Positions 36,667 to 40,691 of a stretch of DNA of 64,000 nt are shown here, piece by piece. The translations under genes and the position numbers were made by a program. The DNA comes from Bacteroidota bacterium. GTDB taxonomy: Bacteria > Bacteroidota > Bacteroidia > SXHM01. Location: contig CANKAM010000016.1 of assembly GCA_947479755.1 (NCBI GenBank), forward strand, positions 1 to 64,000. The letters run 5' to 3'. Under the pieces are notes generated by a model. The model searched no databases. It saw nothing but the letters and a program-made list of their open reading frames with translations, and was not told where the DNA came from. How positions within the stretch are numbered: position 1 is the first letter of the stretch; every line of letters begins with the position of its first letter.

Positions 36667-37116
36667 TCAGATTTGCGCAATTTGCAGGACATCTACTCCT
36701 GCATCGCGCAAGAAATCAACTCCGGTTGTGTCTTTATATTCGTTGATGTAAACCAAACGTTTAATGCCTGATTGCAAAATAAGTTTGCTGCATTCTTTAC
36801 AAGGTGAAAGTGTTAGATATAATGTTGCGCTACGTGCATTGTTGGTTGAACGTGCTACTTTCATAATGGCATTTGCCTCGGCATGCAAAACATACCACCA
36901 GGTTTCACCTTCGGGATTTTCGCAATCATTTGGGAAGCCGGTTGGAGTTCCGTTGTAGCCATCGGAGATAATCATGCCCTCCTTAACAATCAGGCTGCCT
37001 ACTTGTTTGCGTTTGCAGTGCGAAAGTTTTGCCCATTCCAAAGCCATTTTCAGGTAAGCCTTGTCGTAGCGTTCCTGCTTTTTATCGCTGCTGTACTTTA
37101 TGAAACCTTCGTCCAC
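36667..37116 (-). CDS. deoxycytidylate (dCMP) deaminase-family protein
   Basis: The zinc-dependent deaminase converts dCMP to dUMP for thymidylate synthesis. Zinc ligands are His in VLHAEANAIM (HAE, with the catalytic Glu) and the Cys pair in SPCKECSKLI; CKRKQVGSLIV and SDGYNGTPTGFPNDC are also family marks. I choose a GTG start at 37116 (149 residues, typical family length). The longer frame from ATG 37179 (170 residues) would place its first codons across a perfect TAGTTTTG promoter box at 37137-37144. The next gene, S41 peptidase, follows 2 bases after the stop. Confidence 0.87.
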   Translation of the reverse strand: MDEGFIKYSSDKKQERYDKAYLKMALEWAKLSHCKRKQVGSLIVKEGMIISDGYNGTPTGFPNDCENPEGETWWYVLHAEANAIMKVARSTNNARSATLYLTLSPCKECSKLILQSGIKRLVYINEYKDTTGVDFLRDAGVDVLQIAQI

Positions 37117-37136
37117 GTTTATTTTGAATAGAGCGG

Positions 37137-37144
37137 CAAAACTA
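37137..37144 (-). promoter_or_regulatory. -7 promoter box of the deaminase-protease pair
   Basis: TAGTTTTG on the minus strand matches TAnnTTTG exactly, 20 bases before the GTG start I prefer. A TTTG (37160-37163) lies 15 bases upstream, shorter than the usual 17-19 spacing. Confidence 0.55.
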
Positions 37145-37200
37145 CGATTATCGCTAAAACAAAAATCCCTGTTAACCATTTTTAGTAAATAGGGAAAATA

Positions 37201-37230
37201 AAGAAGGCAGAGAAAAATCTCTGCCTTCTT
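37201..37230 (-). terminator. duplicated copy of the tRNA-Leu terminator
   Basis: A 13-bp stem (AAGAAGGCAGAGA and complement) around AAAA, with an A-run to its left that is a T-tail on the minus strand. It is nearly identical to the hairpin at 37611-37642 that ends the intact tRNA gene, so it was copied together with the tRNA fragment next to it. Confidence 0.85.
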
Positions 37231-37296
37231 GTACCCGGAGCCGGTCCCGATAGCTATCGGGACGAACCGGCACGGTTTCCTACAGGTGTTTGAGAC
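37231..37296 (-). pseudogene. 3'-half relic of tRNA-Leu(CAA) interrupted by an 18-bp palindrome
   Basis: Read on the minus strand it matches the intact tRNA from GTCTCAAACACC in the anticodon arm to the 3' end. Only three substitutions stand out, apart from the T-loop. There, the three bases ACT are replaced by TCCCGATAGCTATCGGGA (37245-37262). Homology starts sharply at the anticodon arm and continues through the copied terminator. It cannot be a functional tRNA because the 5' half is missing. Confidence 0.88.
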
Positions 37297-37305
37297 TAAA
37301 TGATT

Positions 37306-37593
37306 CTATACTTCATATTTTGCCTTTAGTTTATGAGCTATTTCAGGATACTTTTTCAAGTTCTGAATGTAGGTTCTGCTTTTCATCCTTTTTATATGAG
37401 TCTCAATTCCTCTTGCTTGTGTATAATCTAACTCATCAATGAAAAAGAACAATTCCCAATCATCAGCATTTGTAGTAAAACTCTTGGCAAATTCCTTGTT
37501 GAAATGTTGACCCATTCTGTAAGATAAATCCTTACAGCTTCCTATATAGAAACTATCAAGATGATTTGAATAAAGAATATAAACAGAGGCCAT
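37306..37593 (-). CDS. GIY-YIG nuclease-domain protein within a tRNA-Leu duplication
   Basis: The 95-residue protein is a minimal GIY-YIG domain of UPF0213 type. VYILYS (residues 4-9) and FYIGSC (15-20) are the two motif strands, Arg in YRMGQHF the catalytic arginine and Glu in GIETHIKRMKSR the metal-binding glutamate, so it looks active. I start it at ATG 37593 (MASVYILYS); a longer frame runs back through the tRNA terminator into the tRNA and is not credible. The gene lies between an intact tRNA-Leu and a 3' tRNA-Leu relic. A TATTTTTG box overlapping the tRNA terminator's T-tail (37605-37612 region) could be its promoter. It may be a homing-type nuclease. Confidence 0.82.
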   Translation of the reverse strand: MASVYILYSNHLDSFYIGSCKDLSYRMGQHFNKEFAKSFTTNADDWELFFFIDELDYTQARGIETHIKRMKSRTYIQNLKKYPEIAHKLKAKYEV

Positions 37594-37610
37594 GTGTGCA
37601 GTACAAAAAT

Positions 37611-37642
37611 AAAGAAGGCAGAGATAAATCTCTGCCTTCTTT
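37611..37642 (-). terminator. intrinsic terminator of tRNA-Leu
   Basis: A perfect 14-bp stem (AAAGAAGGCAGAGA with its complement) and a TAAA loop, followed on the minus strand by a T-rich tail. It starts directly after the tRNA 3' end. Confidence 0.9.
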
Positions 37643-37643
37643 G

Positions 37644-37723
37644 TACCCAGAGCCGGAGTCGAACCGGCACGGTTTCCCACAGGTGTTTGAGACCAGCGCG
37701 TCTACCAATTCCGCCATCTGGGC
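37644..37723 (-). tRNA. tRNA-Leu (anticodon CAA)
   Basis: The 80-base minus-strand gene folds as a class II tRNA. The acceptor stem is GCCCAGA / TCTGGGT with a G-U first pair and discriminator A. The D arm is GCGGAATTGGTAGACGC; the anticodon loop is CTCAAAC giving CAA; the variable arm is short (TGTGGGAAACCGT); the T arm GCCGGTTCGACTCCGGC is perfect. The anticodon stem has one T-T mismatch. CCA is not encoded. Two broken copies flank it, at 37231-37296 and 37737-37782. Confidence 0.93.
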
Positions 37724-37736
37724 ATTCAGGTTTCTT

Positions 37737-37782
37737 TGCCCAGTCTACCATCCCGATAGCTATCGGGACCGCCATCTGGGCA
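37737..37782 (-). pseudogene. 5'-half relic of tRNA-Leu with internal deletion and an 18-bp palindrome
   Basis: Minus-strand order: GCCCAGATGGCGG (identical to the tRNA 5' end), then TCCCGATAGCTATCGGGA (37751-37768) where the intact gene has AAT in the D loop, then TGGTAGAC, then a jump to CTGGGCA, which resembles the tRNA 3' acceptor strand. TGCCCAG and CTGGGCA pair as a 7-bp outer stem. It lies 14 bases upstream of the intact tRNA. Confidence 0.85.
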
Positions 37783-37812
37783 AAAAGCGGGGTGCGAAAA
37801 TAGTTAAATGTT

Positions 37813-37842
37813 TTTGACGTGCAAACTCTTTTACTACGTTTG
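37813..37842 (+). promoter_or_regulatory. consensus promoter abutting the biotin-carrier gene start
   Basis: TTTG (37813-37816) and TACGTTTG (37835-37842) are 18 bases apart, an exact -33/-7 match. The -7 box ends only 4 bases before the ATG, which implies a leaderless or near-leaderless mRNA. Confidence 0.75.
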
Positions 37843-37846
37843 CAAC

Positions 37847-38365
37847 ATGGAAGAATTATTTAAAGCCAAAATAAACAACGGAAAAGAAACCGAAGTTGTA
37901 TTCACGGACAAAAGAAGGAAGTCAGGCTCTTTTAATGGAGAGGGATTTACGTGGGATATGATTGAGGTGAAGAAAAATATGTTCCATATTATTTCGGGGA
38001 CAAAATCATTTACTGCTGAAGTGGTGAAAGCTGATTTGACTGCAAAAGCCTTTACCATTCTGGTAAACGGGCATAAATACAACGTAGATGTAAAGGATAA
38101 GTTTGATGCGCTGTTGCATGAGCTGGGAATGGATAAGTTGGCTGCTGCAGGTGTGCAGGAAGTAAAAGCTCCTATGCCTGGAATGGTTCTTAATATTAAT
38201 GTTGCCGCAGGTGATGAAGTGAAGAAAGGAGATGCGCTGTTAGTTTTGGAGGCCATGAAAATGGAGAACATTATTAAATCGCCACGCGATGGAAAAGTAA
38301 AAACTATTAAGGCCGTGCAAGGATCTGCGGTGGAGAAAAACCAGTCGCTGGTTGTATTTGAATAA
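37847..38365 (+). CDS. biotin/lipoyl-attachment carrier protein (BCCP-like)
   Basis: The 172-residue protein ends in a biotinyl domain (about residues 105-172) with VKAPMPGMVLNI and the biotinylation motif LEAMKMEN, target Lys138. The first 100 residues are a BT-domain-like beta region as in the carrier parts of acyl-CoA (propionyl/acetyl) or pyruvate carboxylases. It would carry carboxyl groups between a biotin carboxylase and a carboxyltransferase, neither of which is nearby. I start it at ATG 37847 (MEELFKAKIN), since an upstream ATG at 37808 would translate across the promoter. Confidence 0.87.
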   Translation: MEELFKAKINNGKETEVVFTDKRRKSGSFNGEGFTWDMIEVKKNMFHIISGTKSFTAEVVKADLTAKAFTILVNGHKYNVDVKDKFDALLHELGMDKLAAAGVQEVKAPMPGMVLNINVAAGDEVKKGDALLVLEAMKMENIIKSPRDGKVKTIKAVQGSAVEKNQSLVVFE

Positions 38366-40590: not shown

Positions 40591-40691
40591 CGTCATTGCG
40601 AGGGAGGAACGACCGAAGCAATCTTATAAATTGAACAACCAAACATTATAAAGAGATTGCTTCGTCCGCCTGAGGCGGACTCGCAATGACG
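40591..40691. repeat. 101-bp intergenic inverted repeat with a palindrome in one arm
   Basis: Outer arms CGTCATTGCGA / TCGCAATGACG and inner arms GAAGCAATCT / AGATTGCTTC pair perfectly. Between them the left arm has GGGAGGAACGACC, while the right arm has the self-complementary GTCCGCCTGAGGCGGAC (40664-40680). The TSUP gene starts 11 bases after its right end. Confidence 0.88.

Follow-up and report, generated by a model that had tools for sequence, protein, structure and literature searches.

Predicted GIY-YIG nuclease genes lying in split tRNA genes of Bacteroidota, and short palindromes in the loops of the tRNA relics

Among the Bacteroidota, a very small gene encoding a predicted GIY-YIG nuclease is repeatedly found inside a split tRNA gene next to an intact copy of the same tRNA, an arrangement that a self-spreading "cut and repair" element would leave, and the leftover tRNA pieces have their loops replaced by short palindromes. 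In the 149 loci of this protein family that were examined, about 119 have an intact tRNA within 300 bp, always on the same strand, and among about 116 distinct loci 71 carry a 3' tRNA relic and 34 carry a 5' relic. Neither the palindrome sequence nor tRNA-splitting GIY-YIG genes in bacterial chromosomes were found in our literature searches, which did not reach many subscription journals. We propose that these loci are free-standing homing-type mini-elements of about 0.4 kb that target a tRNA gene and carry the part that rebuilds it; cleavage and transfer are inferred.

The starting point was a window of 64,000 nucleotides from a Bacteroidota bacterium (GenBank assembly GCA_947479755.1, contig CANKAM010000016.1), in which the original prediction described an intact tRNA-Leu(CAA), a GIY-YIG gene and two broken tRNA copies. 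That observation is confirmed, as all parts are found where they had been placed. On the minus strand the order is 5' relic (about 37743-37781), intact tRNA-Leu(CAA) (37643-37723, ARAGORN), its terminator (37603-37639, hairpin GAAGGCAGAG/CTCTGCCTTC plus T-run), a GIY-YIG ORF of 95 amino acids (37306-37593; Pfam PF01541, E=1.5e-10), 3' relic (37231-37296) and a second copy of the terminator hairpin behind the 3' relic (37203-37228, matching 37614-37639), which corresponds to the native terminator in the empty sites of two genomes of the genus, G004 and G005 (G numbers denote genomes and L numbers denote loci in our collection). The intact tRNA-Leu(CAA) is the only copy in the genome and is therefore unlikely to be dispensable. 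The 3' relic, comprising tRNA positions 31-64 and 68-81, starts 9 nt after the stop codon and 4 nt before the anticodon, and the 5' relic comprises positions 1-13 and 17-24, although it may be an internally deleted whole tRNA rather than a clean 5' half, since the adjacent TGGG--CAAAGAA resembles the tRNA 3' end plus the terminator start. The original prediction had missed that each relic has three bases of one loop replaced by the 18-bp palindrome TCCCGATAGCTATCGGGA, ACT in the T-loop of the 3' relic (37245-37262) and AAT in the D-loop of the 5' relic (37751-37768); these are the only two copies in the window, with 0 expected by chance. The open frame of the nuclease extends back into the tRNA (37306-37680, GTG start, 124 aa), so gene finders may annotate a nuclease with a tRNA-encoded N-terminus. 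The locus is flanked by a dCMP/cytidine deaminase gene (36667-37179, minus strand) and a biotin/lipoyl attachment protein gene (37808-38365, plus strand), both identified by Pfam, which anchor the orthologous site in related genomes.

Filled and empty versions of the site were found in congeners at three loci in two genera. In the window's genus, the place between the deaminase and biotinyl-carrier genes holds one undivided tRNA-Leu in G002, G004 and G005, and the split, nuclease-bearing form in G000, G001 and G003. In G003 both relic ends carry the GCCCGG..CCGGGT allele seen in G005, whereas the intact tRNA carries the other allele (GCCCAG..CTGGGT); in G000 the 5' relic has the A allele, perhaps by gene conversion. 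A two-gene insertion between the biotinyl gene and tRNA-Leu in G003 and G005 (L039, about 1740-2230, and L041), which reads by eye like a RelE/ParE-type toxin-antitoxin pair, is absent from the window. In the same genus, G001, the closest relative of the window's genome, alone has a second, different GIY-YIG gene at tRNA-Met (L350, contig C21), which is absent from the window's genome; G000, G004 and G005 are empty at this site, and G003 has an upstream tRNA-Met relic with D-loop and anticodon-arm hairpins but no nuclease (L358, 2370-2446), whose anticodon hairpin nearly matches the one in the downstream relic of G001, suggesting shared descent or the same insertion. In G001 the native terminator (AAAAAAAGCTCCTT...) follows the relic and the intact tRNA has a new one. 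In another genus, G525 is filled and G507 and G499 are empty at tRNA-Asn, and again the native terminator (AAAAAAGACT.TCAGAAATGATGGTC...) follows the relic while a different one follows the intact tRNA. Displacement of the native 3' part with its own terminator is predicted by insertion with replacement and not by tandem duplication. At the window locus, however, both terminators are of the native genus type, so that a within-genus or local duplication cannot be told from an import. A search for empty sites in one further genus (g37 in our numbering) gave no clean pair.

A protein search of 395 genomes of the class found homologues in 62, a patchy distribution. Of 69 loci from this search, 56 have a tRNA within 300 bp, all on the same strand and 52 upstream of the gene. 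A scan of GTDB genomes with a profile of 8 sequences (a broader alignment of 26 sequences was too diverse for such scans) gave 376 relatives, of which the 80 best are Bacteroidota (one labelled only "uncultured bacterium"), and 65 of these 80 have a tRNA within 300 bp. Two of the 65 (L178, 327-413, and L180, 2791-2878) are hairpin-bearing relics called as tRNA-Leu by ARAGORN, so this count and the relic survey of 116 loci are high by up to 2, and annotation pipelines may count such relics as real tRNAs. Loci without a tRNA mostly show tRNA pieces or the hairpin, or lie at contig ends; hits labelled Leu-CAA q3-18 among them are the hairpin itself. By comparison, among 33 GIY-YIG loci taken as best PF01541 matches, only 3 are near a tRNA, and these three score as members of the present family. 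Tblastn of the protein against 50,697 phage records at E<=1e-3 found nothing, and searches of plasmid and viral collections were also negative.

Of the about 116 distinct loci, 15 have both a 3' and a 5' relic. The usual form is intact tRNA, terminator, GIY-YIG gene and 3' relic, while in the mirror form (L061, L064, L065) a 5' relic is followed by the GIY-YIG gene, a copied promoter and the intact tRNA. The 3' relics begin anywhere from D-loop to T-arm, with a sharp mode at position 17 (D-loop) for tRNA-Leu, and in the mirror form most 5' relics end at about positions 22-43. The original prediction that the 3' relic begins exactly at the anticodon arm thus holds for this locus but not for the family. 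Arrays are of two kinds: near-identical tandem copies (L093, L200, L117, L073, L211), and unrelated copies in a row within one tRNA (L058; L191, in which profile scores fall from 118 to 98 to 46 bits with distance from the intact tRNA), the latter as expected from successive insertions.

On a tree of 108 proteins the tRNA isotype changes 13 times, against 44.4 in shuffles (0 of 200 as low), across several bacterial families, and Leu-clade nucleases sit at Leu tRNAs with five different anticodons. The tree rests on 84 columns and most deep forks are unresolved, so only clustering is claimed. The protein is under purifying selection (dN/dS about 0.05-0.5, and 0.14 for the window copy against the G003 copy). 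Residues Y5, Y16, G18, R26, H30 and E64 are kept in the family, including the GIY-YIG catalytic Tyr, Tyr, Arg and Glu, which together with the PF01541 match places the protein in the GIY-YIG superfamily. The predicted structure is a single confident domain (pLDDT 96), and no separate DNA-recognition domain is present in the 95 residues; such a domain is typical of homing endonucleases but not universal.

Of 135 inserts in relics, 117 fall in tRNA loops (T 45, anticodon 33, D 31, variable 8) and 91 are clearly palindromic, usually 15-18 bp replacing 3-5 nt. The sequences differ by genome (TCCCGATAGCTATCGGGA, TCCCGATTCATCGGGA, TCCCGCAAGGCGGGA, CCCCGAAAACATTCGGGG). In L093 and L117 the relic nearest the intact tRNA carries fewer hairpins than those further out, which suggests progressive accumulation. 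We considered whether the palindromes mark GIY-YIG genes genome-wide, but the window's genome has 12 copies of the 16-bp core of its palindrome, most not at GIY-YIG genes, and counts are similar in congeners without the element. The idea that loop hairpins need a GIY-YIG gene was also dropped, because hairpin-bearing relics occur without one (L148, L150, L160-L162, L264 and tRNA-Met of G003). In L155 (G174, contig C9, about 1440-1550), within an array of more than 12 tRNA genes, one otherwise tRNA-like copy (TTTTGAATC anticodon arm) has its T-loop replaced by the palindrome with no GIY-YIG gene near. At other sites in the genus (L131, L136, L137, L127), TCCCGATAGCTATCGGGA sits in the centre of other inverted repeats such as GTCACCCTG..CAGGGTC, with CACCCTG..CAGGGT in L131, L136 and L137, replacing part of their loop, so it appears to favour hairpin loops. 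Another dispersed palindrome, TCCGCCTGAGGCGGA (40665-40679 of the window), is of the type that replaces the anticodon arm in the tRNA-Met relic of G001. Hairpin insertion can therefore be separated from the nuclease. It might reflect a loop-seeking palindrome for which unconstrained relics are ideal targets, selection for hairpins that break the direct repeat which would otherwise delete the element, or scars of nuclease cuts; the data do not decide among these.

We consider it likely that the locus is one member of a family of chromosomal, free-standing homing-type mini-elements of Bacteroidota. Two features of free-standing homing endonucleases are seen here, namely an uninterrupted target in alleles without the gene and target specificity inherited with the nuclease lineage. 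What the analysis establishes is the layout (a one-domain GIY-YIG gene lying against an intact tRNA gene of a given isotype, with part of a second, displaced copy of that tRNA on the far side), the presence of one undivided tRNA at sites without the gene, the displaced native flanks, nuclease lineages that go with the tRNA isotype and not with the host family, the patchy distribution, and selection on the protein. Cutting of the tRNA gene, repair from a donor and spread are inferences from these patterns. In this view, the nuclease would cut the tRNA gene somewhere between D-arm and anticodon arm, and the break would be repaired from a donor that carries the nuclease gene plus the rest of the tRNA, usually the 3' part with a terminator and sometimes the 5' part with a promoter. 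The cell would keep a working tRNA, and the native fragment would be pushed to the far side with its own terminator or promoter as a relic, which would then collect palindromic hairpins in its loops that break up the direct repeat and may keep the element from being lost by recombination. Several points weigh against this model: the lack of a DNA-binding domain beyond the GIY-YIG fold is unusual for a site-specific homing enzyme, the scattered relic ends do not prove one cut site, the near-identical tandem arrays indicate that plain recombination contributes, and empty sites could also arise by exact loss through the tRNA repeats.

The original interpretation, a minimal nuclease-driven mobile element that uses a tRNA gene as its target and rebuilds it, is partly supported. 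Its central inference survives the checks that had been set for it beforehand, since genes of this subfamily are next to tRNAs in most cases, many independent cases with 3' duplications exist, and congeners without the gene have a single undivided tRNA. It was too strong in taking the anticodon arm as the junction, a relic does not prove a present element, and nuclease-driven movement itself remains an inference.

Among other explanations, the one that retains some possibility, although we regard it as unlikely, is that recombination between tRNA copies amplifies tRNA segments, as SegB does in phage T6, with the GIY-YIG gene riding along and the relics being worn-out tandem tRNA copies rather than displaced halves. 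The near-identical tandem units, the tandem whole tRNA-Asn genes without the nuclease in many genomes of one genus (g58 in our numbering) and the copied terminator at the window locus are in its favor, but tandem duplication does not give the native terminator behind the relic and the different terminator behind the intact tRNA that are seen at the filled tRNA-Met and tRNA-Asn sites, and isotype-bound nuclease clades across families and the rows of unrelated copies in L058 and L191 also speak against it. A host function, for instance in tRNA-gene maintenance or in a defence or anti-tRNase role, with the split tRNAs as by-products, would be consistent with purifying selection and a chromosomal location, with no homologue found in the phage, plasmid and viral collections; it is doubtful in view of the patchy presence, decayed copies and dead arrays, the many tRNA targets, the congeners without the gene, and only very weak partial hits to defence families.

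A 3' tRNA repeat is the usual attachment-site footprint of tRNA-targeted integrative elements, and 3' relics are present in 71 loci; however, a remnant of such an element whose integrase and cargo were deleted is very improbable, because the same gene, size and layout recur over 100 times without an integrase between the repeats (at the window locus only the GIY-YIG ORF lies between tRNA and relic) and because mirror-image cases have 5' relics and copied promoters. A group I intron with a homing endonuclease would interrupt the tRNA, and at the window locus an intact, uninterrupted tRNA is present next to the gene. Chance neighborhood or assembly artefact is refuted: most genomes found are metagenome assemblies, but isolates show the arrangement (Pedobacter, Mucilaginibacter hurinus, Flavobacterium pokkalii, Cytophaga aurantiaca, Gelidibacter), and its frequency is far above the roughly 0.2% that we infer would be expected from tRNA density. 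A more speculative reading, which we hold only tentatively and think unlikely, is that the nuclease recognizes the folded tRNA shape (hairpins extruded from the gene, or a tRNA-DNA hybrid) rather than a plain sequence and cuts its loops; the palindromes that replace D-, anticodon, variable and T-loops would then be the healed scars of such cuts, and the relics would record a new kind of hairpin-loop-directed DNA cutting and repair.

If the homing model is correct, it would add a selfish element of about 0.4 kb that attacks single-copy essential tRNA genes in bacterial chromosomes and carries its own rescue, a natural "cut and rescue" design. It offers a ready explanation for many GIY-YIG genes and tRNA fragments in Bacteroidota genomes, gives natural filled and empty sites in culturable, non-pathogenic species (Pedobacter, Flavobacterium), and exposes an unexplained process that puts short palindromes into hairpin loops, which is the part furthest from anything found in the literature searched.

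Among solved structures, the best matches of the protein by sequence are UPF0213/YhbQ-like and SLX1 GIY-YIG proteins, and by fold 1zg2, I-TevI (1ln0) and SLX1, at Foldseek E-values of only 0.01-0.2; UPF0213/YhbQ-like and SLX1 proteins are not known to be linked to tRNA genes, and SLX1 is a structure-specific nuclease working with a partner. The palindromes resemble REP palindromes, which are associated with REP-associated transposases (PMC3733652, PMC2817692), in being short, dispersed and extragenic, but they are not GTAG/CGTC-tagged, they lie inside hairpin loops, the neighboring enzyme is GIY-YIG, and palindrome counts in the genus do not depend on this gene. The closest precedents for the proposed elements are the fungal mitochondrial mORF hybrid genes and phage SegB, from which the present family differs in being in bacterial chromosomes, on tRNA genes with isotype specificity, and at about 0.4 kb. 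Phage SegB and other Seg enzymes (PMC13096335) are free-standing GIY-YIG homing endonucleases enriched near tRNA genes, with tandem tRNA-plus-nuclease units arising by recombination, and SegB drives tRNA amplification; they are phage genes for which we found no isotype preference and no split-tRNA relics reported, and no sequence relation was detected in the tblastn search of phage records, SegB itself not being aligned directly. In the fungal mitochondrial mobile ORF (mORF) hybrid genes, i.e., Allomyces macrogynus atp6 and Glomus atp6, atp9, cox2 and nad3 (PMC3630166; Paquin et al. 1994 as cited there), no hairpins in relic loops are reported and the elements are larger, residing in protein genes of an organelle, with LAGLIDADG in the Glomus atp6 example, whereas the present family combines a bacterial chromosome, tRNA genes, a 95-aa GIY-YIG protein and 5'-type mirror cases. 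As in the present family, an endonuclease ORF is inserted in an essential gene together with a replacement copy of the 3' part of that gene, the native 3' part is displaced downstream, and the insertion is recognized by comparison with relatives that lack it.
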